From NCBI GenBank assembly GCA_030827315.1, contig JAURER010000028.1:1-34027 (forward strand): a DNA stretch of 34,027 nucleotides. The letters run 5' to 3'. The first letter of the stretch is position 1. Each line of letters begins with the position of its first letter. This stretch comes from Gemmatimonadota bacterium. Its GTDB lineage: Bacteria; Gemmatimonadota; Gemmatimonadetes; Longimicrobiales; Gaopeijiaceae. Below the pieces are notes generated by a model. The model searched no databases and was not told the origin of the DNA. It worked only from the letters and a program-made list of their open reading frames with translations. The translations under genes were made by a program, and so were the position numbers. Of this stretch, positions 13,204-34,027 are shown in pieces.

Positions 13204-13435
13204 GAGGCTGTGCAGGGGGTTGAGGGGGGGCAGCGCGGCCCCACCGGTCGAGTGATGGCGTCAAGGTGCGTATCCGCGCACGTTCGCGACAGGCCGACCG
13301 GGACGCGGCGCGCGTACGGGCGGGGCAGGCCTCCGCGCGGGCGAGGCGTCGGTTCGGGTGACGGGGCCGTTGGGCGATCGGGCGACCACCGTTACTTTCG
13401 GGCGCTCCAGAAACCGATCTCCTGCGGAACGTGTG

Positions 13436-14146: not shown

Positions 14147-14180
14147 ACCCGGACGGTCCGCAGGGAAGAGGCGACACGGA

Positions 14181-14226
14181 GGAGCGCGTTCTCGCGCTCG
14201 CGCGGGGCCCTCGGGCCCCGCGCTCC
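14181..14226 (+). terminator. Overlapping GC-rich hairpins downstream of the FKBP gene
   Basis: An 11-bp perfect stem (14200-14210 with 14213-14223) overlaps the region of a second stem, GAGCGCG/CGCGCTC (14182-14188 with 14193-14199). The left arm of the second could instead pair with CGCGCTCC at 14219-14226 to enclose the first. It lies 35-80 bases past the FKBP stop and probably ends that transcript. No T-run follows. Confidence 0.45.
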
Positions 14227-14337
14227 CCGTCCTCCGGAAACAAGAGCGGTTCGTTTTCCGTCAGAGGAAGGTGAGGAACCCCGGCGGGCTCACCGGTCGG
14301 GGCGTGACGTCGACCAAGAGGGGAGATCGAGACGCCC

Positions 14338-14670
14338 ATGAACATCGTCACCAGCATCCTGCTCCACGCCTTCCTCCTCTTCCTCGTCGGCCAGTTCGTC
14401 CGCGGCATCGAGGTACGTGACGCGAAAGCGGCGCTCTTCGGCGCCGTGGCGTTGGGACTCGTCAATACGTTCGTCCGGCCGCTCATGGTGCTGCTGACGC
14501 TTCCGATCAACGTCCTGACCCTCGGCCTCTTTCTCCTGGTCATCAACGCGCTGGTGCTCATGCTCGCGGCCGCCTTGGTCGAAGGCTTCGAGGTGGAAGA
14601 CTTCGGCGCGGCGTTCTGGGGGGCTCTGGTTTTCGCGGCGATGAACGTCATTGCCGGCTGGGTCGTCTGA
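14338..14670 (+). CDS. Small four-TM membrane protein of the phage-holin-IV (PF04020-like) family
   Basis: A 110-residue protein with four hydrophobic segments separated by short loops. The pattern NTFVRPLMVLLTLPINVLTLGLF followed by INALVLMLAAALVEGFEV is characteristic of the family annotated as mycobacterial four-TM phage holin superfamily IV. These are chromosomal housekeeping membrane proteins of unknown function in many bacteria; the name does not imply a prophage. A GGGGAG element lies about 12 nt before the ATG, a longer spacing than usual. It is a single gene with a hairpin at each side. Confidence 0.88.
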   Translation: MNIVTSILLHAFLLFLVGQFVRGIEVRDAKAALFGAVALGLVNTFVRPLMVLLTLPINVLTLGLFLLVINALVLMLAAALVEGFEVEDFGAAFWGALVFAAMNVIAGWVV

Positions 14671-14685
14671 GCGGGAACGGTTGAA

Positions 14686-14713
14686 GCATCGGCGCCGCGG
14701 TCGGTGCCGATGC
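14686..14713 (+). terminator. Hairpin terminator after the small membrane protein
   Basis: Arms 14686-14696 and 14703-14713 pair over 11 positions with one G-T mismatch around a six-base loop. It starts 16 bases past the stop codon. A short T-run (TATTTTT) occurs about 20 bases further on, too far for a textbook terminator but consistent with transcript end here. Confidence 0.5.
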
Positions 14714-14783
14714 CAACAGAGAGAAATCCTGTATTTTTCCGGAACCGCCTTCCCCTCCCCGGGGTGGAGCCAGATTCTCGAAC

Positions 14784-16136
14784 ATGCTGCCCATGGCCGC
14801 TTCCCGAGTTCGCCGCATTCTTGCCGTGTCCCTCCTCGTCGCCACCGCGTGCGCTTCTGCGGAGGACCGGTTCAACGAGGGAACCCGGCTTCAGTTTCAG
14901 GGGCGCTACGTCGAGGCGGTGTACCGGTACGCGGAGGCGGTGGAAAAGGACCCGGAGCTCGTCGTCGCCCGGGATCGGCTCCTCGCGGCGGGCGATACCG
15001 CGGTGCTCGTCGCCATGGAAGAAGCCGACGAGCTCGTCGGCAGGGGGGATCCGGTGCAGGCGGCAGGGCGGTACCAGCAGATCGACGCGATGGTCGCGAG
15101 AATCAGGGAGGTCGGACTCCGTCCGCTGCTGCCCGAGGCGTACGCCGCGACCCGCCGCGAGGCGTTCGACGACGCGATCGACTGGCAGATGACCGAAGCG
15201 GACGCCGCCGCACGGGACGGACGCTGGGAGGACGCGGTCCGCTACTACCGCGGAGCCCGCGACGGCTACCTGCCCTCGCGCGATCAGGTGGAGGCCTCGT
15301 ACGACGGGGAGACGGCGCTCCTTCTGACGTGGGCCGAAGTCGAGCTCGCCGACGGCCACCCGCGTTCGGCGCACGAGCTCGCCCAGCGCGCCCTGAACGT
15401 GCGAGGATCTTCGGCCCGGGAGACGGTGCTTACCGTCCGGGACATCCAGGACCGCGCCCTCGCCGACGGTACGGTCGTGATCGCCGTCGTGCCGGTGACG
15501 GCCGAGCCCGGCGTGCGTGAATGGCTCGGCGGGGAGTTCGAGATCCAGCTCGACAATGACCTCGCCCTCGACTACTGGACGCGGCCGCCGCTCTTCGTGC
15601 AGGTGGCCGATCCGATCGTCCTGCGGCGCGAGCTGCGCGGTCTTCTTCGCGGACGGGCCGCACAGTCGCCGCTCGTAGTGGGACGGGCGCTGGATCTGAT
15701 CGGAGCCGACGTGGGCGTGGTGGTGCGCCTGACCGGAATCGAAGTCTCCGAGCGGGACGTCGAGCGCGATCGGCACGAGGCGGTCGTGCGCCGGAACGCG
15801 CGTCGCGGCACGGGGGATGCGGTCACGGACACGGTCGTGTACGAGACGGTCCGCGGGACGATGAGCTACTTCGTCGAGGCCGAGATCGTCCTGGTCGATC
15901 CCGACGGTCGTGAGGTGAATCGCCTCACGGCCTCGGCGCGGGAGAGCGGCCCCTTCGAGCGAGGCGAATTCCAGGGTGACCCGCGCATCCTGCCAAACGA
16001 GGGCGACCACGCCCGCTTCTTCGATCCGGCGGTCCTCTCCGGCCAGATGACCCAGATCGAGGGAGCGGTCATGACCGGGCTCGCCGCCGCGATCGCGAGC
16101 GGGACCTACGACCAGATCGTTGCCGCCATACGCTGA
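14784..16136 (+). CDS. Tetratricopeptide-type lipoprotein with CsgG/LpoB-like C-terminal half
   Basis: A 450-residue protein with a lipoprotein signal (lipobox VATAC, lipidated cysteine near residue 23). Residues about 25-200 are helical and TPR-like (FNEGTRLQFQGRYVEAVYRY, then an AARDGRWEDAVRYY repeat). From about residue 225 the sequence turns alpha/beta (VVIAVVPV, ALDLIGADVGVVVRLTGIEV), reminiscent of periplasmic CsgG/LpoB-type domains; that resemblance is tentative. ATG 14784 or a second ATG nine bases later could be the start. The RND exporter follows after 42 bases, so the lipoprotein may serve that transporter. I do not know its exact function. Confidence 0.82.
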   Translation: MLPMAASRVRRILAVSLLVATACASAEDRFNEGTRLQFQGRYVEAVYRYAEAVEKDPELVVARDRLLAAGDTAVLVAMEEADELVGRGDPVQAAGRYQQIDAMVARIREVGLRPLLPEAYAATRREAFDDAIDWQMTEADAAARDGRWEDAVRYYRGARDGYLPSRDQVEASYDGETALLLTWAEVELADGHPRSAHELAQRALNVRGSSARETVLTVRDIQDRALADGTVVIAVVPVTAEPGVREWLGGEFEIQLDNDLALDYWTRPPLFVQVADPIVLRRELRGLLRGRAAQSPLVVGRALDLIGADVGVVVRLTGIEVSERDVERDRHEAVVRRNARRGTGDAVTDTVVYETVRGTMSYFVEAEIVLVDPDGREVNRLTASARESGPFERGEFQGDPRILPNEGDHARFFDPAVLSGQMTQIEGAVMTGLAAAIASGTYDQIVAAIR

Positions 16137-16178
16137 GGATCCCGGGCACGGACTCCTCCAGGAAACGGTGGAGGGCGC

Positions 16179-18308
16179 GTGCTGAGATCCTGGGCGAACC
16201 GCCGTTCCGGCGCGGGGGCGGTCGCCCTGTCGCTCGCGTCGGCCGCGGCCGTCGTGCTGTTCGTGGATCTGTCCCCGCGCGTCGAGGGCGAATTCTTCTT
16301 CGCGGACGACGATCCGCAGATGCAGGCGTCGCGACGGGTGACCGAGGACTTTCCGCTGGGCTCCCAGCTCGTGCTCCGGGTCGAGGATCGGGTGGGCCGG
16401 CCGGATGCGTACCGGGCGCGCATCGCGGCGCTCTTCGACGACCTTCTCGCGGTGGACGGCGTGGACGGCGGCTTCAGCATCGCGACCCACGACCCGGAGA
16501 GGAGTCCGCTCTACCGGAGGCTCCTCCTCACCTCCGACGCACGGGCGACGAACGTCATCCTCTCGGTGGACGACACCGCCCCCGAGGTGCTGCTGCCGCG
16601 CGTCGAGGCGGTGGTGGCGGCCCACGCCACGGACGAGCTGGCGATCGTCGTTTCGGGCGTGCCGGCCATCGTGGAGCTGATCCGCAGGAGCCTGTACCGC
16701 GACCTCGTCGTCTTCAGCGCTTCGGCGGTGCTCGTCTTCGCACTGATCATCGGTGTCGTCTTCCGCGACCCGGCCGTGGTCGTCGGGACGCTGTCCACAT
16801 GTCTCGTTTCGGTGGGGGTGACACTTCTCCTCGTGCAGGCCATGGACGTGGGGATCGGCCTGCTCACTGCGAACCTGGTGACGATCGTCTTCGTCCTCAC
16901 CCTGTCGCACGTCGTCTTCCTGACCGCCAACTGGAGACGCACCGACGCGGGCGGCGAGTCGGCGACGGACCGACTCGCACAGACGCTGCGGCTCACGTGG
17001 GAGGGCTCGTTCTGGAGCATGGTCACGACGCTGCTCGGCTTCGCGAGCCTTCTGGTAGCGAGTGCGCGGCCGCTGCGCGAGCTGGGCCTCGCCGGCGTGG
17101 TGGGCGCGCTCACCGCGCTCGTGGTCTCGTACGTCGTCTACCCGGCCTTCCTGGGAGGGTGGGCACGTACGCAGTCCCCCGGAGGCGCCGCGCCGGGTGA
17201 AGCGACACGCCCGTTCACCCGATGGCCGCTCGCAGTCGCGGGCGTGCTGGTTCTGGCGGCGCTCGCGGGGGTGCCTCGCCTGGACACGGACCCCGGGCTG
17301 CTGACGTACTTCGCCGAGGGGTCGGAGCTGCACGAAGGGCTGGCCCGGATCGACGCCGACGGGGGCAGCAGCACGCTCGACATCGTCGTTGAGGACCCCG
17401 CGGGGGAGGCGCTGTCGTCGCGCAGCGTCTACCCGCGACTCGAGGCGCTCCAGGCCGCGCTCGAGGCGGACTCGGCGGTGGGTGTCGTGCTCTCGCCGAC
17501 CGTGCTCATCGAGCATGCCCGGACGATTCCCTTCGCCGGGCTCCTTCCGGCGGGGACGCTCCTCGACATCGCGTCTTCGGACCGACTCGACGGCGTCGGG
17601 CTCGGCTTCGTCCGACCCGAGCACGACCAGGCGCGCTTCTCCCTCCGGATGCGCGAAACCAACCCCGAGCCGCGCTCGGCTGTGCTCGTCCGCATGCGCA
17701 CGGTCGTCGAGGACGCGGGACTGCGAGCGGTGACGATCGCCGGCCTCTACGACCTGCAGGCGCAGCTCGGTCGACTCATCGCGTCCAGCCTCGCGATCGG
17801 GATCGGCGGGCTCCTTCTGCTCTTCCTGGGCGTCGCGGTCATCGTCGGCCGCGCGCCGGGGATCGCCGCACGCATGTGGCTGTGCCTCGCCGCCATCCCC
17901 GCGGTCATCGTCGGCACCTTCGGCCACGCGGGCATCGCGATCGACATCATTACCTCGCCGGCGGCCAACATCGCCCTCGCCATCGGCGCGGATTCGATGA
18001 TCCACCTCGTGGTCCGGCAGCGCCGGCTCAGGGCCATGGGCGGAGCAGCGGCGTGGAAGGCGTCCGTCCAGCAGATCGGGCCGGCGGTGGTCGGCGCGAC
18101 GGCCATCGTGTCCGCAGGCTTCGGCATCTTCGTCCTGTCCGCCTTCCCGCCGACCCGGCGCTTCGGGCTCGCCGTGATCGTGGGGACACTCGCCGCCGCG
18201 GCGATGGCGCTGGTCGTGCTTCCGCGACTCGCTTGCCTCGGAAGGGGCCGCACGGACAGCTTGTCGGCCGCGCCGACCCCATTCCTCCGGGACGAGACGA
18301 CCCCCTGA
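16179..18308 (+). CDS. RND-superfamily (MMPL-type) exporter
   Basis: A 709-residue inner-membrane protein with the duplicated RND/MMPL layout: TM1, a periplasmic domain (about residues 30-165), five further helices, TM7 (about 345), a second periplasmic domain and five final helices. Segments such as MDVGIGLLTANLVTIVFVLT and IDIITSPAANIALAIGADSM correspond to the central helices of the two halves. Relatives (MmpL, HpnN and sterol-sensing-like exporters) move lipids or hydrophobic molecules using the proton gradient; the substrate here is unknown. The GTG start at 16179 has GGAGG four to five bases upstream. Its stop TGA is immediately followed by the ATG of the permease gene. Confidence 0.9.
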   Translation: MLRSWANRRSGAGAVALSLASAAAVVLFVDLSPRVEGEFFFADDDPQMQASRRVTEDFPLGSQLVLRVEDRVGRPDAYRARIAALFDDLLAVDGVDGGFSIATHDPERSPLYRRLLLTSDARATNVILSVDDTAPEVLLPRVEAVVAAHATDELAIVVSGVPAIVELIRRSLYRDLVVFSASAVLVFALIIGVVFRDPAVVVGTLSTCLVSVGVTLLLVQAMDVGIGLLTANLVTIVFVLTLSHVVFLTANWRRTDAGGESATDRLAQTLRLTWEGSFWSMVTTLLGFASLLVASARPLRELGLAGVVGALTALVVSYVVYPAFLGGWARTQSPGGAAPGEATRPFTRWPLAVAGVLVLAALAGVPRLDTDPGLLTYFAEGSELHEGLARIDADGGSSTLDIVVEDPAGEALSSRSVYPRLEALQAALEADSAVGVVLSPTVLIEHARTIPFAGLLPAGTLLDIASSDRLDGVGLGFVRPEHDQARFSLRMRETNPEPRSAVLVRMRTVVEDAGLRAVTIAGLYDLQAQLGRLIASSLAIGIGGLLLLFLGVAVIVGRAPGIAARMWLCLAAIPAVIVGTFGHAGIAIDIITSPAANIALAIGADSMIHLVVRQRRLRAMGGAAAWKASVQQIGPAVVGATAIVSAGFGIFVLSAFPPTRRFGLAVIVGTLAAAAMALVVLPRLACLGRGRTDSLSAAPTPFLRDETTP

Positions 18309-22737: not shown

Positions 22738-23484
22738 CTAGGAACCCGGTTCGGACCGCATCCGTCGAAGGGCCTCGGCGGCCGCTGCGTTGCCCGCGGC
22801 CGCCGCCCGTTCGTACCAGTAGGCCGCGAGCGCTCCCCGGAGCGGGACGCCCCGCCCGGCCTCGTACGCTTCACCGAGGCGCAGCGCCGGGATGACGTCG
22901 CCGGCGCGGGCGGCCCGAAGCCACCATCGCGCCGCCCGTCCGTGGTCGACCGCGACGCCGCGACCGTCCCGGTACATGTTGCCCACGTTGTGGACGGCCA
23001 GCACGTGTCCGTGGCGAGCCGCGCGGAGATACCAGCGCATCGCCTCGGGGAAGTCCTCCTCGACGCCGAGTGCCTCGTCGTACGCGGTTCCCATCAGGAA
23101 GGCCGCTTCCACGTCGCCCGCGGCCGCGAGGTCCCGCACGCGACCGAGGACCTCGCGTGCATGCGCGCGCGCCAGCGCCTCGTCACGCGCGAACCCCATG
23201 CGTCCCCGGGAGTGGACGCGCGCGAGCCACATGCGGGAAAGCGCATCGGATGGTGCGGCGTCGGGCCTGGCGGTCAGCTCGAGCAGGAGCGCCCGGGCCC
23301 GGTCGTCGTCGACGCGCCCGGTCACCCCGGTGTACCAGTCGATGGCCTCCAGGAGACGTTCGTCGGCGACGGTCGCCGGCGGGTCCGACGCCGGCTGCGC
23401 CGACGCGGGGGCGAGGGTCGCGAGCATTGCGCCCAGGAATGCCGAGAGGGCGCGGGCCCGCCGTCGGGTCACGCCCGTCCCCAT
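22738..23484 (-). CDS. Secreted Sel1-like repeat protein
   Basis: A 248-residue precursor. A Sec signal peptide (likely cut after APASAQ) is followed by a helical segment and about four Sel1-like repeats. These include AAFLMGTAYDEALGVEEDFPEAMRW, the next repeat with YRDGRGVAVDHGRAARWW, and a third with YEAGRGVPLRGALAAYWY. These TPR-related repeats mediate protein-protein contacts, here in the periplasm. The ATG shares one base with the stop codon of the upstream FMN oxidase gene (TGATG), a sign of translational coupling. It is therefore the last gene of the qhp-oxidase transcription unit, and could be a scaffold or quality-control partner for the exported enzymes. That role is inferred. Confidence 0.87.
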   Translation of the reverse strand: MGTGVTRRRARALSAFLGAMLATLAPASAQPASDPPATVADERLLEAIDWYTGVTGRVDDDRARALLLELTARPDAAPSDALSRMWLARVHSRGRMGFARDEALARAHAREVLGRVRDLAAAGDVEAAFLMGTAYDEALGVEEDFPEAMRWYLRAARHGHVLAVHNVGNMYRDGRGVAVDHGRAARWWLRAARAGDVIPALRLGEAYEAGRGVPLRGALAAYWYERAAAAGNAAAAEALRRMRSEPGS

Positions 23485-24719
23485 CAGTCCACGCCGATGG
23501 AGTGCGGCCCGAGCGATGCCACGGACGGCGCGCCGATCGCGCGCATGGTGAGCTCCAGCTCGTTCGTGAGGATCTCGAGGGCCCGCTCGACCCCCTCCTG
23601 TCCGAATGCGCCCAGACCCCAGAGATAGGGCCGGCCGACAGCCACGGCCGTGGCACCGCGCGCGATCCCCTTGATGAGGTCGGAGCCCCGCCGGAAGCCG
23701 CTGTCGACGATGATCGGCATGCGACCGGCCACCTCGTCGGCCACCTCCGGAAGCGCGTCGATCGTGGCGCGGCCGTCGCCCTCCGCCCGTCCCCCGTGGT
23801 TCGAGACCCAGATCCCGTCGATACCGTGCCGCACGGCGAGCTCCGCGTCTTCACGGGTGACCAGGCCCTTCACCACGATCTTCTGGTCCGTGACGTCGCG
23901 CAGCCGCCGGATGAAGTCCCACGTCATCGCCGCCCCGGCACTCCCGTCGGCCGGGCCGGAAGGGAGTCCCCGGAGCATCGGCTTGACCGGGTCGGCGCGC
24001 CCTCCGGGCGTGTGGCAGTTCGCGCAGTTGCGATCGTCCACGCGCTCGTAGCGCTCGAGCGTGAGGCGGTTGCTGCCGCCGTTGAGGTCTACAGTGAGCA
24101 CGAGCACCGGGCACCCCGCCTCGACGCTGCGCCGGACGAGCGCGGCGGTGCCCTCCCAGTCCGGTCGGGCGTAAAGCTGGTACCACACCGGCTCGCCGCG
24201 CGCCTCGTTCACCTCCTCGACGGCCGTCGACGTCACGGTCGAGAGCGTCTGAAGGTGCGTACGCGCGCGTGCCGCGCGGGCCGTGGCCAGCTCCCCTTCG
24301 GCGTGGAACGCGCGCTGGCTGCCGGCCGGAGCGACGATCAGCGGTGTCGGCCACTCCCGGCCGAAGAGGCTTACCCTCGTGTCGAGCGTCGAGACGTCGA
24401 CCAACCGGCGCGCGCGCAGGTAGATCCGCTCCAGCGCGGCACGGTTGTTCGCGTACGTCTCCTCCCCGTCGACGCCCGTCATGATGTACCCGTAGTGGGC
24501 CGTCGGGACCTTCGACGCGGCGACACGCTGCAGGTCGAAGACATCGAGGGCCTCGTCGGCGCTCTGCACCAGATCGTCGAACACGCGCCGGGGCGCCTCT
24601 TGGGCGATGACCTGCTCGAGCCCCGCGAGGCCGCCCGCCGACGCGAGCAGGGGGCTGGCCGCCAGCCAGCGCAGGAAGTCGCGGCGGCGCACGTCGGTGC
24701 GGGTCTCGGTCGGGGGCAT
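23484..24719 (-). CDS. Tat-exported FMN-dependent alpha-hydroxy-acid oxidase/dehydrogenase with CxxCH motif
   Basis: A 411-residue protein. The N-terminal RRDFLRWLAAS is a twin-arginine export signal (R12-R13), so the folded flavoprotein is predicted to be periplasmic. The TIM-barrel has the family features: the FMN-site region LIVAPAGSQRAFH, K284 in VVKGLVT, catalytic H308 in VSNHGGR, and the C-terminal DSGFRRGSDLIKGIARGA and AVGRPYLWG phosphate-binding segments. It should oxidise an L-2-hydroxy acid such as lactate. A CANCH sequence (C232, C235, H236) sits in a loop where such enzymes have no known haem. ATG 24719 has GGAG six bases upstream. The gene lies 53 bases after qhpE and overlaps the Sel1 gene by three bases. 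Confidence 0.93.
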   Translation of the reverse strand: MPPTETRTDVRRRDFLRWLAASPLLASAGGLAGLEQVIAQEAPRRVFDDLVQSADEALDVFDLQRVAASKVPTAHYGYIMTGVDGEETYANNRAALERIYLRARRLVDVSTLDTRVSLFGREWPTPLIVAPAGSQRAFHAEGELATARAARARTHLQTLSTVTSTAVEEVNEARGEPVWYQLYARPDWEGTAALVRRSVEAGCPVLVLTVDLNGGSNRLTLERYERVDDRNCANCHTPGGRADPVKPMLRGLPSGPADGSAGAAMTWDFIRRLRDVTDQKIVVKGLVTREDAELAVRHGIDGIWVSNHGGRAEGDGRATIDALPEVADEVAGRMPIIVDSGFRRGSDLIKGIARGATAVAVGRPYLWGLGAFGQEGVERALEILTNELELTMRAIGAPSVASLGPHSIGVD

Positions 24720-24772
24720 GAGGGACTCCGGTCTGGTGGATTGCCCCAGGGTGCGCGGTCGCCGTCGGAGCG

Positions 24773-25480
24773 TCAATGTCCGCCCGGGGACGGGGGCGTG
24801 CGACCGCGGAGCAGGGCGAGCGCCGCGCGGGCCGTTCGCGCCTCGGGCGCGCCGGCCAGAACGCGCGCGAGGACGCCCGTGGCATTCGCCACGGCGAAGG
24901 AGATCCCGTTGAGGTTCCGCTCCCGCGGAAGGCCCGGGACCGGCCGCGGCCAGGGGGCCGCGCGGAGGACTTCCTTGCCCTCGAAGTCGATCACGTGCAC
25001 CTCGTCTCTTGGCTGATCCGGGTCCATGACCACGCCGACCACGCCACCCATGGAACCGGGATACCAGCGGCGTCCGTCCATCGCGAAGGCCGACACGACG
25101 ATCGACCCGCGCTCCGCTGCCCGCTCGATGGCCGGGGCCAGTTCCGTCGCCCGGAAGGCGTTCGGCGTCCCGAGGCTCAGGTTCACCACCCGACAGCCCC
25201 GCTCGGTGGCCCAGTCGATGGCCCGCACGAGCGTGGCCACCGTCGTGGCCAGCTCCCGATCGAAGACCTTCACCACGTGCAGCACGGCGTCGGGCGCCTT
25301 CTCGTGGATGGCGGCCGCGGCCGCGGTCCCGTGACCCAGCCGGTCGACCACGTCGCCCGAGGCGCCGCCGTCCACGTCGAAGGCGATGCCGTCGGCCACG
25401 GAGGGGAGGTGCGGATGAGGCACGTTGGCACCGCTGTCGATGATCGCCACGTGGACGACCGTGGGACGCTGCGCCGTCAT
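24773..25480 (-). CDS. qhpE: Subtilisin-like serine protease, QhpC leader peptidase
   Basis: A 235-residue protein without signal peptide, so cytoplasmic. It is a compact S8 domain with D15 (AIIDSGAN), H50 (LGHGTA) and S194 (NGISFA) as catalytic triad, plus the VVNLSLG strand. In the characterised qhp system this protease removes the leader of QhpC after the thioether bonds are made. The subtilisin oxyanion Asn, normally in AAGN, is not present in the corresponding VSAFAMDG. The ATG at 25480 overlaps the qhpF stop by 4 nt (ATGA). The small size, lack of export signal and position make QhpE the best assignment over a general secreted subtilase. Confidence 0.9.
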   Translation of the reverse strand: MTAQRPTVVHVAIIDSGANVPHPHLPSVADGIAFDVDGGASGDVVDRLGHGTAAAAAIHEKAPDAVLHVVKVFDRELATTVATLVRAIDWATERGCRVVNLSLGTPNAFRATELAPAIERAAERGSIVVSAFAMDGRRWYPGSMGGVVGVVMDPDQPRDEVHVIDFEGKEVLRAAPWPRPVPGLPRERNLNGISFAVANATGVLARVLAGAPEARTARAALALLRGRTPPSPGGH

Positions 25481-27210
25481 CCCTCGAGCACGTCGAGGAA
25501 GAGCGTCCGGAAGTGCGATCCCCCAGCTTCCAGGATCTCCGGTGACCCGTCCTCTACGATCCGTCCCCGCTCCACGACCACGACCCGGTCGGCCTGCCGA
25601 GCGAGGTCGAGTCTGTGGGTGATGATGACCGTGGTCCGCCCCTTCATGACGCGGTCGTATCCCGCGAGCACGCTGGCCTCGGAAGACGGGTCGAGGGCGC
25701 CCGTGGCCTCGTCCATCACGAGCACGGCGGGGGCCGAAAGGAAGGCGCGGGCGATGGCCATCCGCTGGCGCTCCCCCGCCGAGAGGCCGCGTCCCCGCTC
25801 GCCGACGACCGTGGCCGTGCCCTCGGGCATGGATCGTACGAGATCCGCAAGGCCGGCCGCCTCGATGGCGGCGGTGATCTCGCCGTCGGTCGCGTCGGGG
25901 CGCGCGTATCGCACGTTGTCCGCGACGCTCGCGTGGAAGAGGAAGGGATCCTGCTCGACCACGGCCACGTGGCGGCGGACGTCGGAGAGCGGGAGTGTGC
26001 GCAGGTCCCGGCCGTCGAGGAGCACGCGCCCTTCGTCCGGATCGGCGTGACGGGAGAGGAGGTCCGCGATCGTGGACTTCCCGCTGCCGCTCGCGCCGAC
26101 GACGGCCACGACCTGCCCGGCGGGCACGTCGAGGTGGATACCGTCGAGTCCCTCGGTGCCCCGGCCGAAGCCGAAGCGGACATTGTCCAGCCGGAGGGCG
26201 CCTTCGCAGGAGGGCAGCGTCTCGGGCGCCTCCGTCTCCACCACGTCCGGGGGCGTGTCCAGGAGCTCGTGGACGCGCGCCAGAGAGGCCCGCGCGGTGG
26301 CGAGGTTGGTGTAGATCCCCATGAGACCCTGAACCGGGGACATGAGGCGCTGCTGGTACGCCATGAACGCGACGAACGTACCCAGCGTCGTCACGCCGCT
26401 GATGACGCGCCATCCTCCGTAGAGGAAGACCACGGCGGTCCCGGCCGTGAGCAGGAGACCTGGGAGTCCGCCCGCGAGATAGCCGAACAGCCTCATGGAC
26501 AGGAGGGCCTCGACGAACGAATCGTTGCGGCCGCGAAAACGTGCGACTTCCCTGTCCTGCGCGTTCGAGCCCACGACCGTGCGCATGCCCTGCAGCGTCT
26601 CGATCAGGAAGGACCCGATGTCCGCGCTCCGCTCGCGCAGCACGCGCACGCGGTCCTCCAGTTGGCGCCGGTACCGGACGAGAGCGAGCAGGGTGGGTGG
26701 GAGCACCAGGATGCCCACCAGGAAAAGCTGCCAGTCGAGCCAGAGGAGCATCGCCACCGTCCCCACGAGGGCCACCACCTGCCCGAACCACGCGAGGGCG
26801 GCTTCCGCGGTGACCCGCTGGATCTCCCCGATGTCGCCGTTGATGCGCGAGACCACGTCTCCGAGCGGCGTGCGGGCGTAGAAGCGCGGAGACAGCCTCT
26901 GGAGGTGACGGTAGAGGTCCAGGCGCATGTCGAACAGGATGTCCGCGGAGACCTTCGTATAGCGCATCCCGCTCAGGACGTTCAGCACGAAGGAAGCGGC
27001 GGTGATCCCCACGAAGAGTCCGACGATGCGAAGCAGCGCGCCGAAGTCACGCCCGACCAGGGCGTCGTCGACCAGGAGTTTCGAGAGGTACGGGAGGACG
27101 AGATTGAGGCCCGTCCCGGCGAGCGAGAGCAGCACCACCGGGACCAGCGCCCCGGCGTAGGGGCGGACATAGCCGAGGGCGCGCCGGAGCTGGGCGTCGA
27201 TGAGCGTCAC
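25477..27210 (-). CDS. qhpF: ABC transporter, fused permease/ATPase, QhpC exporter
   Basis: A 577-residue half-transporter. An N-terminal six-helix ABC transmembrane domain (residues about 1-310) is followed by an ATPase domain with Walker A GASGSGKST near residue 371, signature LSAGERQ near 473, Walker B VLVMDEAT near 498 and H-loop ITHR. There is no N-terminal C39 peptidase domain, so leader cleavage must be done by another protein, consistent with the adjacent qhpE. In known qhp operons QhpF exports the crosslinked gamma subunit to the periplasm. The GTG at 27210 is the longest start and has no clear ribosome-binding site. It overlaps qhpE by 4 nt. Confidence 0.92.
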   Translation of the reverse strand: MTLIDAQLRRALGYVRPYAGALVPVVLLSLAGTGLNLVLPYLSKLLVDDALVGRDFGALLRIVGLFVGITAASFVLNVLSGMRYTKVSADILFDMRLDLYRHLQRLSPRFYARTPLGDVVSRINGDIGEIQRVTAEAALAWFGQVVALVGTVAMLLWLDWQLFLVGILVLPPTLLALVRYRRQLEDRVRVLRERSADIGSFLIETLQGMRTVVGSNAQDREVARFRGRNDSFVEALLSMRLFGYLAGGLPGLLLTAGTAVVFLYGGWRVISGVTTLGTFVAFMAYQQRLMSPVQGLMGIYTNLATARASLARVHELLDTPPDVVETEAPETLPSCEGALRLDNVRFGFGRGTEGLDGIHLDVPAGQVVAVVGASGSGKSTIADLLSRHADPDEGRVLLDGRDLRTLPLSDVRRHVAVVEQDPFLFHASVADNVRYARPDATDGEITAAIEAAGLADLVRSMPEGTATVVGERGRGLSAGERQRMAIARAFLSAPAVLVMDEATGALDPSSEASVLAGYDRVMKGRTTVIITHRLDLARQADRVVVVERGRIVEDGSPEILEAGGSHFRTLFLDVLEG

Positions 27211-27282
27211 GCCGTGGGCCGGGCGGTTGTGCAGCGGAGGCTCGGGGACGCGAACATTGGGTACCGCAGGGGAGCTGGGCCC

Positions 27283-28371
27283 CTAGCGGCCTCCCGCAAT
27301 CACGGCGGTGCCCGTCATGTCCTCGTCGAACGTCACCGTGCGCAGCAGCTCGAAGGTATCGACGTCGTAGACGTCGATCGTGTTGCCCGCGACAAAGACG
27401 TAGAGCTTCTCGCCATCCGCGCTCACCCGAAGCCCCATGCGGGGGCGTCCGGCGAACGGAACCTTCCGCGCGACGCGCCGGTCGGCCAGGTCGAACTCCC
27501 AGAATTCGTAGCGTCCGACGGTGGAGTAGAGGCCGTACGCCTTCTGGCCGCCGGGCGCGAGCGCGAATCCCCGGCCGCCGGAGACGGGCTCGGACGGGCC
27601 GAGCATGAAGAAGTCGACGTCCTGCTCGTCGAGGCGGACCTGGGCGATGCCCATCAGGGTCCGGTTCTGCACCGGATCTCGCATGCGCACGAGATTGGTG
27701 GCGACCCCGGGCTCGTCGTACGTGCCGGAGGCGACGCCGAAGTTGAGGGAGCCGAGGCCCGGCTCAAGCGGCTTCGAGATCTCCCAGCGGTCGACTTCCT
27801 CGTACGTCTCCGCGTCCACGGCGATGATGTCGTCGGCGAACATGTAGAGCGTCCGGCCGTCCGGGGAGTACGCGAAGCCGACGGCGTCACGCGATTCGCC
27901 ATCGGGGAAGGGGATCGTGTCTGTGACCTGCTTGGTGCGCATGTCGTACTCGAGGATGAACGGCCCCTCCACGAGGAAGCGGTCGGTCATCTTCGTGGTG
28001 CGCTTCACCAGCAGAACGGCCTTCGTATCGTCCGGATGGAAGGCGGATCCCTCGAACCGGACAGTGACGCTGTCGTGAGACAGCGTGAATTCGTCGATGG
28101 CCCGGTTGGTGGCCAGGTCGACGATCTCGAAGCGCTGCATCGAGGCGTCCTCGACGTACAGACGCGTTTTCGACTCGCTCACGGTGACGCCGATCGGGAA
28201 GAAGTTCTTCATCGCGATCCGGTCCACCACCTGCTCCGAGGCCTCGTCCCAGACGAGGATGTCGTTGGTGTACGTGCCGATGTACCACGTCGCGGTCGCC
28301 TGCGCCGAGGCGGCGGAGGCGGAGAGGAGGAGTGCGGTCGCGGCTACGGCGGCGCGGACGTTGAGGCGCAT
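27283..28371 (-). CDS. qhpB: Quinohemoprotein amine dehydrogenase beta subunit (beta-propeller)
   Basis: A 362-residue precursor with a Sec signal peptide (likely cut after ASAQ). The rest consists of propeller-type repeats such as TYTNDILVWDEASEQVVDRI, SPDGRTLYMFADDIIAVDAET, SADGEKLYVFVAGNTIDVYDV. This matches the seven-bladed YVTN-like propeller of the QHNDH beta subunit, which packs against the alpha and gamma subunits and contributes to the active site in the periplasm. The gene lies between qhpC and qhpF. No strong ribosome-binding site is seen, so translation may be coupled or rely on the weak upstream sequence. The assignment rests on position and fold together. Confidence 0.91.
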   Translation of the reverse strand: MRLNVRAAVAATALLLSASAASAQATATWYIGTYTNDILVWDEASEQVVDRIAMKNFFPIGVTVSESKTRLYVEDASMQRFEIVDLATNRAIDEFTLSHDSVTVRFEGSAFHPDDTKAVLLVKRTTKMTDRFLVEGPFILEYDMRTKQVTDTIPFPDGESRDAVGFAYSPDGRTLYMFADDIIAVDAETYEEVDRWEISKPLEPGLGSLNFGVASGTYDEPGVATNLVRMRDPVQNRTLMGIAQVRLDEQDVDFFMLGPSEPVSGGRGFALAPGGQKAYGLYSTVGRYEFWEFDLADRRVARKVPFAGRPRMGLRVSADGEKLYVFVAGNTIDVYDVDTFELLRTVTFDEDMTGTAVIAGGR

Positions 28372-28432
28372 GGGGCTTGTGACGATGGGAAGTCGGGTAA
28401 GGCGGAGGGGCGGGTGCTGCCGTGACGGCGGC

Positions 28433-28795
28433 CTAGGGGAAGATCAGGTCGAGCTTGCGCCAGTCCTTCTGCGCCGAGGCGCACTTGCCGGTCCAGTCGG
28501 GGGCGTGGTTGAGCTGGTCGGGCACGTGCGCCGGCCAGAAGCACCCGAGGTGGCAGTCGAAGATGTCGCGCTCCACGGGCTGGCAGAGACCCGCGGTGCC
28601 GCCCTGGGAGTCGACCTCCCAGCCGGGGGAGAAGACGAGGGAACAGCCCATCGGGAAGTGGGGCCCGGTCTCCTCGTGCGGTGGCGTGCGCAGGCCCACC
28701 ACGTCCATCTCTTCGGCCTTCGCCTGTTCCGCTTCCCACGCCACGTACGCCTCGATGCGCGTGGCCTTCTGGTTGACCGCTCTCAGGTGCTTCAC
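28433..28795 (-). CDS. qhpC: Quinohemoprotein amine dehydrogenase gamma subunit precursor (CTQ-bearing peptide)
   Basis: A 120-residue precursor, here a ribosomally made and heavily modified subunit. The core holds all four known crosslink pairs at the exact known spacings: C51-E60, C71-D77, C85-D93 (thioether bonds) and C81-W87 (cysteine tryptophylquinone, CTQ). They equal C7-E16, C27-D33, C41-D49 and C37-W43 of the mature proteobacterial protein, an offset of 44. The context GCSLVFSPGWEVD, GLCQPVERDIFDCHLGCFWPAHVPD and DWRKLDLIFP is characteristic. The leader MKHLRAVNQKA is followed by an Ala/Glu-rich helix. A fifth cysteine (C105) is extra. The GTG start at 28795 has GGAGG eight bases upstream. 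It works in the periplasm with QhpA and QhpB, oxidising primary amines. Confidence 0.95.
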   Translation of the reverse strand: MKHLRAVNQKATRIEAYVAWEAEQAKAEEMDVVGLRTPPHEETGPHFPMGCSLVFSPGWEVDSQGGTAGLCQPVERDIFDCHLGCFWPAHVPDQLNHAPDWTGKCASAQKDWRKLDLIFP

Positions 28796-28895
28796 TGCGA
28801 TCGCCTCCTCGTGCGATGTCGAGACGTCCGTCGTCCGAACGTCAAACTACTCCCAAACTCTTCGCAACGCTTCGTCTTCGTCGAGGCGCTCCGGA
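28796..28895 (-). other. qhpD-qhpC spacer with a near-perfect direct repeat
   Basis: A 100-base gap, the longest within the qhp run, slightly richer in A/T than its neighbours. The 12-mers TCGAGGCGCTCC (28881-28892) and TCGAAGCGCTCC (28900-28911) match at 11 of 12 positions, the second overlapping the qhpD 3' end. A weak minus-strand TTGACG box could support an internal promoter to boost the stoichiometric subunit qhpC. None of this is proven. Confidence 0.3.
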
Positions 28896-30365
28896 CTAGT
28901 CGAAGCGCTCCAGGAACTTCGGGTTCTTCTCCGCCAGGGCTCCGTAGATCTCCAGGCAGGTGTGCGTCCAGCTCCGTACCCACGTGCAGTAATGCAGATT
29001 CGCGTGGGACGAATCACCGTAGCGGACGTGGGACTCGTGGTAGCACCCGCCCGAACAGATGGGGCGGGCCCAGCAGGTGTGGCAGTCCGTCTTGGCCGCG
29101 ATGTGGTGATCGACGAGGAACTTGCCCTGCTTCTCCCGGTCGATCCCGTCCGCCACCGTGCCGAGCGTGTGCTCGGGCGAGCCTGCGAAGCGGTGACAGA
29201 GCGAGACGTCGCCGTCGGTCGCGACGCCGAGCAGCCCCAGTCCCGCCCCGCACCCGTACGCCTTGCTCACGCCCTTGTGGATCTCTTCGATGGTGTCCTT
29301 GACGTTGGTGAAGCCGTGGTGCTCGTCCCGGAGCGCCGCCTCGAGCCATTCCTGCGCCAGGATCTCGAACTGGCGCATCATGTCGTCCTTGCCCTCGGGC
29401 GTGATCGCGTAATCGCGCTGATCCTGCGTGGTCACCGGTGCGAGGCCGACCTCCCAGAAGCCGATCTCCTCGGTCAGGTGCCGGAAGATCGTGAGCACGT
29501 CCATGTTCTTCTGCGTCAGCGTGACCCGGGCGCCGATGGGGCGCGTGCGGTGCACCGCGAGCAGCTCCTTGATCTTGGGCAGGACGACGTCGTATGTGCC
29601 CTTCCCGTTGTGGAAGACGCGCAGCCCGTCCTGCACCTGCTTCGGCCCGTCGATGGAGATGGTGACGCCGATCTGGTTCTCGGCGAGCCATTCGATGATC
29701 TCGGGCCTGAGGAGCGTCGCATTGGTTGTGAGGCTGAACTCGATCCGCTTGCCCTCTTCCGCGGCCCTCCGGCGGGCATAGGCGACCGTCTTCTGGAGCA
29801 CCGGGAAGTTCAGCAGCGTCTCGCCCCCGAAGAAGGTGACGTGCGCGACGGGAAGTCCTTTCGACTCGGCGAGGAGGAACTCGACGCTCTCCTCGGCGGT
29901 CTCGTCGCTCATGAACTTCGGCTGCTTGCCGTACTGCGTGTCGACGATCTTGTCTTCGCCGTACTCGTAGCAGTACGTGCACGCCAGGTTGCACTTGTTC
30001 GTGACGTTGAGGACCATCGTATTCAGCGGGAAGTCCTCAGGCGGCAGGTCGTTGGGTACCTGCTGCGTCGGCGCGGCCGGGTCGCCGATCGCGCGGATCT
30101 CCGTCAGTTCGTCGATCGTCTCCAGCAGGCGGTCGACGCCGAAGAGGTCTGAAAGCTCGTCGATCAGGTCGTCGCGCTCCCGCGGCCCGCGCGCGAGCAC
30201 GTCCAGGATCGCGCACCCCGCGTCGTCCATCCGGAAGATGCCCGCGGACGGAACCATGTAGAGAAAGCGCGCGCCGTGGGCCTCGAACGGGTGGAACTCC
30301 CGCAGGGCCAGGACGGAGCTCGCCCCCGTCGCGTCCGGCGCCCCCGTCGCGACCGGTGGCGTCAT
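28896..30365 (-). CDS. qhpD: Radical SAM/SPASM peptide maturase forming QhpC thioether crosslinks
   Basis: A 489-residue cytoplasmic protein. An N-terminal segment of about 100 residues, with FHPFEAHGARFLYMVPSAG, resembles a peptide-recognition (RRE-like) region. The radical SAM core has the [4Fe-4S] motif C125-NLA-C129-TY-C132, the GGETLLNF strand and the SLTTNATLL and ISIDGP motifs. The C-terminal SPASM region has GCGAGLG, DGDVSLCHR, DCHTCWARPICSGGCYH and HYCTW cysteines for two auxiliary clusters. In known systems it forms three Cys-to-Asp/Glu bonds in QhpC. The ATG at 30365 overlaps the qhpA stop (ATGA). PqqE-like or sulfatase-maturing roles are less likely because qhpC is the adjacent gene. 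Confidence 0.95.
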   Translation of the reverse strand: MTPPVATGAPDATGASSVLALREFHPFEAHGARFLYMVPSAGIFRMDDAGCAILDVLARGPRERDDLIDELSDLFGVDRLLETIDELTEIRAIGDPAAPTQQVPNDLPPEDFPLNTMVLNVTNKCNLACTYCYEYGEDKIVDTQYGKQPKFMSDETAEESVEFLLAESKGLPVAHVTFFGGETLLNFPVLQKTVAYARRRAAEEGKRIEFSLTTNATLLRPEIIEWLAENQIGVTISIDGPKQVQDGLRVFHNGKGTYDVVLPKIKELLAVHRTRPIGARVTLTQKNMDVLTIFRHLTEEIGFWEVGLAPVTTQDQRDYAITPEGKDDMMRQFEILAQEWLEAALRDEHHGFTNVKDTIEEIHKGVSKAYGCGAGLGLLGVATDGDVSLCHRFAGSPEHTLGTVADGIDREKQGKFLVDHHIAAKTDCHTCWARPICSGGCYHESHVRYGDSSHANLHYCTWVRSWTHTCLEIYGALAEKNPKFLERFD

Positions 30366-32071
30366 CGGTCGTCCCCGATGGGGCGGCGACCGTCGTCGAT
30401 GGGCCGCCAGGGATCGAAGCGAATGTAGAGCGGCACGGTGACCACCAGGTGGGCCCGGGCGCTCAGTTCCTCTCCCGTCGGGGTGCGGTGCGTGCCTACC
30501 ACCCAGACGTCGCCGATGTTGTTCCGGTTGCCGCTGCGGTTCCCGTTCGGACCGTCGACGGCAGGGGTGAAGACCCCGTCCTGGCCCATCGTCCCCACGA
30601 AGTCGACGTCGTCGTCGTCGTAGATGGCCGTGTACTCCTCCATGTGCCACGACGCCGGCACACGCCCGAGCTTCAGGTCGTCGTCGGTCTCGGGCTCGCC
30701 GTCGGGCCCGTCGTTCCATCCGATCACGTCGAAGGTCTGGTACCCCTTCGGGAAGGCGGCGCCGCCGGTTCGCGCCAGCCCGGTCTTCGGGGTCACCTCG
30801 ATGCGGTCGACCCCGTCGTGCACGACGATCGCACCCTCGACGATCGAGCCGAACGCGTAGAGGTCGCGCGCGCCGAGGTCGGCGTCGGGCGAGATCGCGA
30901 GCGAGACGTCGAGGGCTCCGTCGCTCGGGCCGCGCACGGACCGCACCGTCACTCCGGCGCCGAAGTCCAGGTCCGCGGGCGTCGCGGAGGACAGCCCGGC
31001 GCCGAAGACCCGGACCTCCACGGAGCCGCCCTGCTCGAGGGCCATCGGGTAGACACCGGCGACCGTGGCGCCACTCGCGCGCCGCAGCGTGACGTCGGGG
31101 CCGATCTCGTCATAGTCTCCCCGGAACCAGCGACCGTGCATGACGTTCTGGTCGCGCTCGACGAACATGACCTCGCGGAGCTCGCTGTCCCCACCCGGGT
31201 TCGAGCGGCCGCGCCACTGGTACCCCGTGTACACGTTCGACTGACCGGAGCGCTGGATCCGCGTCCCGGTCTCGGCGTAGACGTAGGTGGCCGTGGTGGT
31301 GAAGGCGTCGGGGTTGGTCGGGTCGGCATGGACGGTCATCGTCCCGAAGATGGGGCCTCGACCCGGTTCGTAGCCGGAGAGCGCCCACGTGCCGGCCAGC
31401 CGCGGAGAGCGCTTCGTCGCCGCCCACGCGGACCACTCGGGCGTCTCCAGGGGGAAGGCCTCCGAGAGGTGATCGGCCGCGCGTTCCATCGGGTGGCGCG
31501 GATCGTCCTGCTCCGAGGCCGGACCCGCGTAGCGGAAGGCCTGGAAGTCGACGAAGGGGTAGAGGCCGCGGTGCGTCGCCAGGACGAGGCTCCACTCGTC
31601 CTTCGTGCGACGCTGCGTCATGACCCGTCCCATCGAATGGCACTGGATGCACGTAAACTCGACGTCCGAGTCACCCTCGTAGTCGTGGTCGTCCATCCGT
31701 CGCTCGACCTCGAAGAGCCCCGGGCGCATCTCTTCCGGCGCGAGGCCCTGCTCGTTCGCGAGATACGTCGCGATCTCTCTGGCGTCTTCCTGATTCAGCC
31801 GCGCGCCGTGCAGCGCCATCATCCGGCGGATCGAGAGCTGCCACCCCTCCGGTGACTTGCGGAGGTACGAAACCCGCGACATCCGACCCTCGTCGTCCAC
31901 GACGTGACAACGCGAGCAGCGGTCGATCACCGTCTGGTTGCGGATCGGGAAGCCGTCGTCGTCGGTGAGCGTGCGATGCAGCGGGGCGGTGGGGGCGGGG
32001 CTCCAGGCGAGGAGGACCCCCAGCGCCGCGGTTCCTGCCACGGCGAGCGTGAAGCGTGCGGAGTGCGCCAT
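30362..32071 (-). CDS. qhpA: Quinohemoprotein amine dehydrogenase alpha subunit, di-haem
   Basis: A 569-residue precursor with a Sec signal (hydrophobic stretch residues 8-24). Two c-type haem motifs are present, CSRCH at 52-56 and CIQCH at 141-145, in an N-terminal di-haem domain (about 40-200). The remaining part is a string of beta domains typical of the QHNDH alpha subunit, ending with a long Asp-rich C-terminal region. It passes electrons from the CTQ of QhpC through the haems to an acceptor such as a small cytochrome c. AGGA sits five bases before the ATG. The stop overlaps qhpD by 4 nt. Haem attachment needs the host Ccm/Ccs system, not seen in the window. Confidence 0.94.
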   Translation of the reverse strand: MAHSARFTLAVAGTAALGVLLAWSPAPTAPLHRTLTDDDGFPIRNQTVIDRCSRCHVVDDEGRMSRVSYLRKSPEGWQLSIRRMMALHGARLNQEDAREIATYLANEQGLAPEEMRPGLFEVERRMDDHDYEGDSDVEFTCIQCHSMGRVMTQRRTKDEWSLVLATHRGLYPFVDFQAFRYAGPASEQDDPRHPMERAADHLSEAFPLETPEWSAWAATKRSPRLAGTWALSGYEPGRGPIFGTMTVHADPTNPDAFTTTATYVYAETGTRIQRSGQSNVYTGYQWRGRSNPGGDSELREVMFVERDQNVMHGRWFRGDYDEIGPDVTLRRASGATVAGVYPMALEQGGSVEVRVFGAGLSSATPADLDFGAGVTVRSVRGPSDGALDVSLAISPDADLGARDLYAFGSIVEGAIVVHDGVDRIEVTPKTGLARTGGAAFPKGYQTFDVIGWNDGPDGEPETDDDLKLGRVPASWHMEEYTAIYDDDDVDFVGTMGQDGVFTPAVDGPNGNRSGNRNNIGDVWVVGTHRTPTGEELSARAHLVVTVPLYIRFDPWRPIDDGRRPIGDDR

Positions 32072-32148
32072 CAAGTCCTGACGTGTGCGGTGGAAGGACG
32101 ACACCACATCCTGCGAAGTTCGGCGGGGATCCGCCAGAGTCGTCGGGT

Positions 32149-33729
32149 CTATCGCGGCGGCGTTTCGTGCTCGAGAAAGCCCGCCGCGAAGGCGGTCGCC
32201 AGGGCCGTCAGGTAGTCGGGAAGGGAGACGGGCGCCGAAACCGCGTTGTAGGCCGTCCATCCATCCGGCACCTCCGCGTGCTCCGGCGCGATCCGGACGA
32301 GCCGCGTGAGATCGACCCCGCGTACCCAGCGCATCCCCTCGGGCAGCGCGTCGCTTCCCAGGTGATCCTGCAGAACGATGCGGTGACCCTCGATGCCCGG
32401 TCGTTCGAACACCCGCACGGACGCTCCGGGTCTCGCGGAGAGGCGCTCGCGGGCCCGGATCTCGTCGAAGGCCCTCCGCACGTCGGCCTCGGGTACTTCG
32501 GCGATCCACCGGTCCGGGTCCGCGGCGCCGCCGGCGGAGTGGGTCGTCCGTCCGGTCGCCTCGCCGGGCGCCGGGCTCCCGACGCCGTCGCGGTCGTCGC
32601 CCGCGTGGCGCGCGGCCTCGGCGCGTGTCACCCAGTACGACGTTCCGTACCGCTCCGCGCCGGCCTCGAAGAAGGGCACGGACGCCCGTCGGTAGCGGCG
32701 ATAGACCTCGTGCTCCCGGGCGTCGAAGAAGTCGATCGCCGTCGCGCCCATGGGAGGGTCGACGAGAGCGGTGTGCGCCGTGACGCCGGCGAGCCACCCG
32801 GAGGAGAGCGCCTTCTTCACCCCGAACGACGAGAGCGGATCGATGAACGATCCGGCGTCACCGGCCAGGAGCAGGCCGGGGCGTCCGAACGACGACGCCG
32901 TGTACAGCGCGGCGGGGCACGCCCAGGCGTCTCCGAGGGGCTCCGCCCCGTCCCGCACCGCGCCGAGGTGGACGGTGCGCGCGAGCTCGGCGTCGAGCAT
33001 GGACGTGACGTCCGACCCGGCGGACCCGGCGCGCGGCTGGTCGATCATCGCCGTGAAACAACGGACCTCGTCGGTGAGGGGGACCGACCACGCCCATCCG
33101 TCGGCGTAGCTCTCGACGAGGGTGTGCCCCGGCTCGAGCCCCGGCCAGCCTCCCGGGTGCCGCCATCGGCGTACCAGGGCGAGTGTCGTGGTGCTTCGGT
33201 CGGGCGTACGACCCTCACGGCGGGCGAGAAAGCCGTGCCGGCCGGTGGCGTCGATCACCCAGGCCGCGGTCAGGACGTGTGTCCGCCCGTCACCGCCCTC
33301 GCAGCGGATCGTCCAGCCGGTGGCGTCCTCGTCCGCGGCCCGGGCCGACGCGTCGTCGAGCACGGAGACGCCGGCCCGCTCGGCCTCGGCCACGAGGACC
33401 GTTTCGAGGGAGAGGCGGTCGGTGTGAAAGCCGACGCGCGAGGCTGCGAACGACTCGACATGAGGAGCATCCCCCGCCCACCACACGGAATTCCCGAGGT
33501 TCCGGTGGAAGCGACCGCGCTCGATGGCGTCGAGGAAGCCGAGCTCCTGGAGGATTCGGTCGGCCGACGGCGGCACGGACTCGGCGAGGGCGGCCGCGGG
33601 GGGTGTCGTCGGACGGACGAGAGCCACCCGGTGGCTCCGCCGGGCGAGGAGGGTCGCCGCCGCGCACCCCGCGGGGCCTGCTCCCAGGACGACGACGTCG
33701 AATTCGGTCACCGGGCCGGCGTCCTGCAT
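32149..33729 (-). CDS. qhpG: FAD-dependent monooxygenase for CTQ precursor tryptophan hydroxylation
   Basis: A 526-residue flavoprotein. The N-terminal dinucleotide fold has VVLGAGPAGCAAATLLARR (GxGxxG), a DATGRHGFLAR segment and the LLLAGDAGSFIDPLSSFGVKKAL motif that binds the FAD ribityl chain, as in PHBH/halogenase-like monooxygenases. About 35 residues of low-complexity linker (near residues 380-415) separate it from a C-terminal domain of about 110 residues. In the described qhp pathway this enzyme adds two oxygens to the Trp of QhpC, which later becomes the quinone. The ATG at 33729 is taken because the flavin fold begins directly after it; a longer ORF upstream is Arg/Pro-rich noise. 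qhpA starts 77 bases downstream. Confidence 0.92.
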   Translation of the reverse strand: MQDAGPVTEFDVVVLGAGPAGCAAATLLARRSHRVALVRPTTPPAAALAESVPPSADRILQELGFLDAIERGRFHRNLGNSVWWAGDAPHVESFAASRVGFHTDRLSLETVLVAEAERAGVSVLDDASARAADEDATGWTIRCEGGDGRTHVLTAAWVIDATGRHGFLARREGRTPDRSTTTLALVRRWRHPGGWPGLEPGHTLVESYADGWAWSVPLTDEVRCFTAMIDQPRAGSAGSDVTSMLDAELARTVHLGAVRDGAEPLGDAWACPAALYTASSFGRPGLLLAGDAGSFIDPLSSFGVKKALSSGWLAGVTAHTALVDPPMGATAIDFFDAREHEVYRRYRRASVPFFEAGAERYGTSYWVTRAEAARHAGDDRDGVGSPAPGEATGRTTHSAGGAADPDRWIAEVPEADVRRAFDEIRARERLSARPGASVRVFERPGIEGHRIVLQDHLGSDALPEGMRWVRGVDLTRLVRIAPEHAEVPDGWTAYNAVSAPVSLPDYLTALATAFAAGFLEHETPPR

Positions 33730-33790: not shown

Positions 33791-34027
33791 TCAGTGCTGC
33801 GGGGCGCAGGCGCACCCGCTCCCGCATCCCTGGAACCCGGCGTCCGGGCCGGAACCGGTGAGCGGCACGGGCGTGCTGAGGAGGCGCTCCACGGGCGCGT
33901 CCGTCGGAGTGTCGCCCGGCTCGGCGCCGGCACGCTCCGTCAGCTCGCCCCATGTCGCGAGGCTCTCGTCCATCGCGTGGCGCACCTCGAGGGTCCGTCC
34001 GTTCGATCCGCAGTGGTATTCGTAGTA
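33791..34027 (-). CDS. FmdB-like zinc-ribbon protein, start beyond the right window edge
   Basis: Seventy-eight residues plus stop are visible; only about one or two residues at the N-terminus are missing, judged by the usual M-x-Y-Y-E-Y start. The YEYHCGSNGRTLEVRHAMDES start and the ELTERAG segment belong to the FmdB-type family of short zinc-ribbon proteins. The second Cys of the usual CxxC is Asn here. The C-terminus, CGSGCACAPQH, is cysteine-rich and may form an alternative metal site. The gene runs in the same direction as qhpG, 61 bases upstream, so it may lead the same transcript. A regulatory or chaperone role is possible but unproven. Confidence 0.8.
   Translation of the reverse strand, partial: YYEYHCGSNGRTLEVRHAMDESLATWGELTERAGAEPGDTPTDAPVERLLSTPVPLTGSGPDAGFQGCGSGCACAPQH

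Follow-up and report, generated by a model that had tools for sequence, protein, structure and literature searches.

A complete qhp operon in a Gemmatimonadota genome, coding for a five-cysteine subtype of quinohemoprotein amine dehydrogenase

The qhp operon, which encodes the subunits and maturation factors of quinohemoprotein amine dehydrogenase (QHNDH), has been reported in more than 1300 species (PMC7876137) and occurs in both Gram-negative and Gram-positive bacteria (PMC8172795). Its radical SAM maturase QhpD joins cysteine sulfur to a methylene carbon of Asp or Glu at spacings of +6 to +9 residues (PMC8172795, PMC7876137), and PapB, a relative of QhpD, makes six Cys-Asp thioethers iteratively (PMC8172795). 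The gamma-subunit precursor QhpC of Paracoccus starts with a leader of 28 residues (PMC7876137). In Pseudomonadota, qhp operons adjoin genes for AraC-type or helix-turn-helix proteins and an aldehyde dehydrogenase. The QHNDH structures and the QhpD and QhpG biochemistry that we found in the literature all come from one of two deeply separated groups. The second group, commoner in our samples and marked by a QhpC with five cysteines, appears unstudied, although its fifth cysteine may already have been mentioned in print. Here, we describe a locus from this second group.

The window, i.e., the whole stretch of 34,027 nucleotides that was analyzed, takes up its entire source contig (C8) in a 3.07-Mb, 98%-complete Gemmatimonadota genome. 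A first-pass annotation, made from the DNA letters, had proposed all seven qhp genes on one strand in the order G-A-D-C-B-F-E, with 4-nt overlaps at A/D and F/E. An ORF check of the window bears this out: the operon spans 24773-33729 on the minus strand, and the overlaps lie at 30362-30365 (A/D) and 25477-25480 (F/E). It is single-copy, as a genome-wide search returned one QhpD over the cut-off and one strong QhpC match. Upstream of qhpG, the contig terminates within an FmdB-like ORF. The features, all on the minus strand, are:

33791-34027, minus: FmdB-like ORF with a degenerate zinc ribbon, cut off where the contig stops; found upstream of qhpG in 11 sister loci
32149-33729, minus: qhpG, FAD-dependent peptidyl-tryptophan dihydroxylase (NCBIfam QhpG NF049967 and 7ctq match)
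30362-32071, minus: qhpA, dihaem alpha subunit with signal peptide and four QHNDH domains (TIGR03908, Pfam, 1jmx_A)
28896-30365, minus: qhpD, radical SAM/SPASM thioether-forming maturase (TIGR03906)
28956-28958, minus: codon of QhpD C470, extra and clade-specific (cysteine comparison)
28433-28795, minus: qhpC, gamma-subunit precursor with predicted 34-aa leader and five-cysteine mature chain (NF037958, PF08992, 1jju_C, 1jmx_G)
28694-28795, minus: predicted QhpC leader, with recognition part MKHLRAVNQKATRIE, spacer and inferred DVVG↓L cleavage motif
28481-28483, minus: codon of QhpC C105, the fifth, clade-specific cysteine (75/75 five-cysteine cores)
27283-28371, minus: qhpB, seven-bladed propeller beta subunit with signal peptide and no cysteine (TIGR03907 below cut-off; predicted fold)
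25477-27210, minus: qhpF, ABC exporter half-transporter lacking a peptidase domain (PF00664, PF00005, operon position)
24773-25480, minus: qhpE, small subtilisin-like leader protease (NF049966, PF00082)
23484-24776, minus: FMN-dependent 2-hydroxyacid dehydrogenase with Tat-like signal, directly downstream of qhpE (PF01070, 4.4e-105)

Three products score above their NCBIfam equivalog cut-offs: QhpA (444 bits against 274, TIGR03908), QhpD (563 against 453, TIGR03906), and QhpC (121 against 50, NF037958); chance matches would come nowhere near these scores. QhpA contains four Pfam domains, Dehyd-heme_bind and Qn_am_d_aII/aIII/aIV, the latter three being domains II-IV of a QHNDH alpha subunit, and its only cysteines are the four in the two CxxCH haem sites. 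QHNDH chains are its sole sequence matches in the PDB (1jmx_A, E 4.3e-80). QhpC, which also matches PF08992, likewise retrieved only QHNDH chains (1jju_C, E 3e-21; 1jmx_G, E 3.9e-21), and its GTG start codon stands behind GAGGAGG, a good ribosome-binding site. The radical SAM CxxxCxxC and SPASM cysteines of a qhp maturase are present in QhpD, the only full-length copy in the genome. QhpG and QhpE fall slightly under the cut-offs of their best-matching models (NF049967, 5.4e-63, 213 bits against 240; NF049966, 1.8e-44, 152 bits against 165). In a PDB sequence search, QhpG matches 7ctq, 'Peptidyl tryptophan dihydroxylase' (6.9e-20), among flavin halogenases; QhpE contains PF00082 and is the best match in its genome, and both assignments agree with operon position and synteny. 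QhpF was named by its conserved operon position, since its domains, PF00664 and PF00005, are those of generic ABC exporters; a Pfam search found no peptidase domain in it. The gene assignments of the first-pass annotation, including the two haem motifs, the radical SAM/SPASM enzyme, the small subtilase, the FAD monooxygenase, and the peptidase-free exporter, are supported, those of QhpG, QhpE, and QhpF as probable.

QhpB is the subunit that sequence models recognize least. It scores 52 bits with TIGR03907, far below the cut-off of 223, and its phmmer matches are generic propellers, as might be expected if the locus encoded a different haem/propeller enzyme or a RiPP cluster that only resembles QHNDH. 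An AlphaFold2 model built from an alignment of 31 sequences (pLDDT 89) was compared by Foldseek with 350,542 PDB chains. The top matches, 1jju_B (6.7e-20) and 1jmx_B (2.9e-18), are both QHNDH beta subunits, and the predicted fold thus identifies QhpB as a seven-bladed QHNDH-type beta-propeller despite its low sequence score. Together with the matches of QhpA and QhpC, this ranking excludes a better fit of QhpA, QhpB, and QhpC to an unrelated haem-propeller family, which the first-pass annotation had named as a refutation. With QhpA, QhpC, and QhpD over their equivalog cut-offs and all residues of the cysteine tryptophylquinone (CTQ) and the crosslinks present, a mere look-alike of QHNDH is exceedingly improbable. 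Because QhpB, QhpE, and QhpG stay under the cut-offs of their curated models, automatic annotation likely leaves such operons partly unnamed.

We put the probability at roughly 93% that the locus is a complete qhp operon for a periplasmic QHNDH of a 'five-cysteine' subtype, probably functional. The reading draws on the equivalog scores of QhpA, QhpD, and QhpC, the fold of QhpB, the similarity of QhpG to 7ctq, the invariant crosslink pairs, and the shared gene order. Against it we count the scores of QhpB, QhpG, and QhpE below curated cut-offs, the identity of only about 38-41% between this QhpD and classical ones, and the missing link to a regulator or aldehyde dehydrogenase gene. The window itself provides gene identities, crosslink residues, motifs, synteny, and subtype, while every reaction step, the cleavage site, export, and the substrate are transferred from studied homologues (PMC7876137, PMC8172795). 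By this analogy, QhpC would be synthesized with a leader whose N-terminal part QhpD would bind, making the thioethers C51-E60, C71-D77, and C85-D93. QhpG would dihydroxylate W87, which together with C81 would give CTQ; QhpE would cleave the leader at DVVG↓L, and QhpF would export the product. In the periplasm, this product would assemble with dihaem QhpA and propeller QhpB into an enzyme that would oxidize primary amines and pass the electrons to a periplasmic carrier.

The operon had initially been described as lying outside its usual proteobacterial setting. Its placement in Gemmatimonadota stands, but the unusualness was overstated: 75 of 395 Gemmatimonadota and 21 of 297 Acidobacteriota genomes yielded a QhpC, compared with 7 of 398 in the Pseudomonadota sample (a phylum recognized as such by its hits and the title of its centre; 10/391 and 19/391 in two orders of that phylum), and more than 1300 species are on record. 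A QhpD scan of GTDB genomes returned 184 relatives, the best 80 of which are nearly all titled Gemmatimonadota or Acidobacteriota, and the gene order G-A-D-C-B-F-E is common to most loci of these two phyla with enough sequence and to Leisingera. The operon is ordinary for its phylum, and its setting is not rare. Recent acquisition from Pseudomonadota, or contamination of the assembly by this contig, might be suspected from the contig's length of just 34 kb and from a few related loci with Pseudomonadota titles (L036, L084, L086, L089; L numbers denote loci and G numbers genomes in our collection). Genomes of the window's genus, however, have the same locus with the same flanks. In a QhpD tree, a check proposed in the first-pass annotation, the window's QhpD nests with Gemmatimonadota, and a long, supported single branch separates it from classical QhpD. 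Both origins were rejected on these grounds as very improbable, and nothing placed the contig in Proteobacteria.

Some of the collected loci deserve mention in their own right. L036 (PBPM01000073.1) is a MAG contig titled 'Rhodospirillaceae' whose qhp locus shares its QhpC with the Gemmatimonadota locus L037, and it is probably misbinned; L089, titled 'Gammaproteobacteria', has its QhpC place in common with G224, whose genome is assigned to the same family as the window. Two QhpC genes occur in G703, G1615, G1634, G1671, and G1690, and one Acidobacteria contig (L085/L094, QHWB01000034.1) contains two qhp loci about 15 kb apart. In several Gemmatimonadota MAG loci (L064, L071, L074, L077), gaps of several kilobases break up the qhp genes, and large ankyrin-like repeat genes (about 1000 aa) lie beside or inside the cluster. 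Loss of QhpE from loci without a nearby qhpE was considered and rejected, because the gene is elsewhere in those genomes: a genome-wide check detected it in all six related genomes and in the window's own.

The QhpC of the window has the crosslink spacings of the characterized gamma subunits, as initially noticed: C51-E60 (+9), C71-D77 (+6), C85-D93 (+8), and, for CTQ, C81-W87 (+6), in alignment with 1jju_C and 1jmx_G. The CTQ Cys/Trp pair and the three Cys-to-Asp/Glu pairs at fixed spacing that characterize a QHNDH gamma subunit are thus all present, and the four pairs are invariant in 75/75 distinct cores. The precursor falls into three parts: it opens with a conserved stretch (MKHLxxINxKAxRIE), which a spacer 2 to 46 residues long separates from a motif of the D-V-V-[AG]-L type, and this motif occurs in 99 of 101 distinct precursors. 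In the window, this motif, DVVG↓L, aligns with the EEVVA↓M that closes the Paracoccus leader, from which we infer cleavage after G34; the first crosslink cysteine would then occupy mature position 17 instead of 7. The variation in spacer length suggests a recognition part and a separate cleavage motif joined by a tolerant spacer.

What is unusual here is a QhpC with five cysteines and a QhpD to match, which the first-pass annotation overlooked in stressing agreement with the known precursor. An alignment of QhpC across phyla revealed a fifth cysteine, C105, in the context WTGKCASAQKDWRK. It is present in all 75 distinct mature cores from loci of the Gemmatimonadota/Acidobacteriota type, while all 36 classical pseudomonadotal cores have A or V at this position. 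In the five-cysteine cores, C51, E60, C71, D77, D80, C81, C85, D93, C105, and D111 are invariant, and position 116 is occupied by D in 74 and by E in one; among the classical cores, 33 have D111, 13 have D116, and none has D80. QhpD shows a parallel difference. An additional cysteine in its SPASM region, C470, is found at 139/139 places in five-cysteine-type loci (105 by pattern, the other 34 read from sequences) and at 0/39 classical ones, where G, A, or V stands instead; of two distant outgroup radical SAM proteins, one has C and the other V. The characterized enzymes have four cysteines in their mature gamma subunit, as do the 36 classical cores but not these 75. As neither NCBIfam nor Pfam includes this count in its definition, QHNDH membership stands, as a variant.

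The role of C105 can be read in two ways. Because every other cysteine of QhpC is used in a thioether, and an invariant unpaired cysteine in an exported protein needs explaining, we considered that QhpD in Gemmatimonadota and Acidobacteriota makes one more Cys-to-Asp/Glu thioether, the fourth, joining C105 to D111 (+6) or D/E116 (+11), accompanied by C470. The mature gamma subunit would then plausibly have five thioether bonds including CTQ; the +6 spacing recurs in C27-D33, and C470 may possibly serve as an eighth cluster ligand. Such a bond is in line with the chemistry of QhpD and with the way in which its relative PapB works iteratively. We hold this proposal tentatively, at somewhat less than an even chance. 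Alternatively, C105 would not be crosslinked and would remain a free thiol or form a disulfide between two enzyme complexes, leaving the classical three Cys-to-Asp/Glu bonds and CTQ, to which we give even odds. A single deep branch carries the differences at both C105 and C470, whose co-occurrence therefore counts as one historical event. The acid at the canonical +6 position, D111, is not diagnostic either, being shared by 33 of the 36 four-cysteine cores, and D116, which first looked specific to the clade as a partner, was set aside when a larger classical sample showed D in 13 of 36. A model of QhpC places C105 inside a short helix, with a pLDDT of 51 that is too low to judge distances. Against an uncrosslinked C105 stands its invariance in 75/75 distinct cores, an unusual pattern where a cysteine of an exported protein has no partner. 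Moreover, QhpA has no cysteine besides the four of its haem sites in 70 of 75 loci, QhpB has none at all in 68 of 78, and no conserved disulfide partner was found in either set, which rules out an inter-subunit disulfide as a conserved feature. If C105 is crosslinked, this QhpD would lend itself to comparative study of how the number and positions of thioethers across an entire protein subunit are set by a radical SAM enzyme.

Around the operon, searches with AraC/HTH regulators encoded beside L113, L116, and L117, which divergent regulators would escape, found no QhpR in the window or in 80 loci, and queries from pseudomonadotal loci found no linked aldehyde dehydrogenase in the same set. The single AraC-type domain of the genome is on another contig. 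The suggestion that control may differ for want of a qhpR-like gene agrees with this result, though the contig ends just upstream of qhpG. There, the FmdB-like ORF (MPYYEY...CGSGCAC; in the window and L033-L045) has lost most zinc-ribbon cysteines and has a Cys-rich tail. In the 11 sister loci, it is an 80-aa protein directly upstream of qhpG, and its homologue in L040 matches Zn_ribbon_8 at E 4.6e-4, below the Pfam cut-off; it is possibly the first gene of the operon in the window's clade. The FMN-dependent 2-hydroxyacid dehydrogenase is probably an accessory gene. Its occurrence next to qhp is confined to the window, L033, L037, L043, L044, and L045, and in these six loci the Tat-type enzyme follows qhpE directly together with a Sel1-repeat protein (window 22738-24776, minus). 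Beyond the seven genes, we found no operon gene conserved across the phylum, the FmdB-like and FMN-dehydrogenase genes being limited to close kin. In the first about 4.5 kb of the loci L033, L035, L037, L040, and L045 from close relatives, putative sulfite dehydrogenase-like (SoxC/SorA-like) genes lie upstream of qhp, accompanied in several of these loci by a c-type cytochrome. Elsewhere in the window, two long ORFs of 476 and 1320 aa (12605-14032 and 14046-18005, minus) have no Pfam match.

Compared with the qhp (pea) systems and QHNDHs of Paracoccus, Pseudomonas, and Cupriavidus (1jju, 1jmx), the locus shares all seven structural and maturation genes, the two haem sites, the four crosslink pairs, and a leader combined with a small subtilase, an ABC exporter, and an FAD monooxygenase. 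It differs from them in the low identity of its QhpD (about 38-41%), which also has C470, in a QhpC with a fifth cysteine, F in place of W42, a longer leader, and an N-terminus extended by 10 residues ahead of the first crosslink cysteine, and in the lack of a linked AraC-type QhpR or aldehyde dehydrogenase. A Leisingera thetidis plasmid (L116) has the identical gene order, but there a helix-turn-helix regulator and an aldehyde dehydrogenase follow, and QhpC has four cysteines. Two Bradyrhizobium plasmids (L150:7073-9741, L151:6761-9492) carry a QhpD-like radical SAM protein and a QhpG-like 'tryptophan 7-halogenase' adjoining ferritin-like proteins; qhpA/B/C are not annotated there, and the pairs possibly represent another tryptophan-modifying system. 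Among the PapB/SCIFF thioether maturases of ranthipeptides, PapB acts on a short RiPP whereas the substrate of QhpD is an enzyme subunit, and the window's QhpD scores 281 bits against PapB, under the PapB cut-off and over the QHNDH-specific one. Closest to the window are the Gemmatimonadota and Acidobacteriota loci and a Novosphingobium plasmid (L115), which have the same five-cysteine QhpC and C470-bearing QhpD and differ by degree alone, in the length of the leader spacer and in the FmdB-like and FMN-dehydrogenase neighbors of its near relatives.
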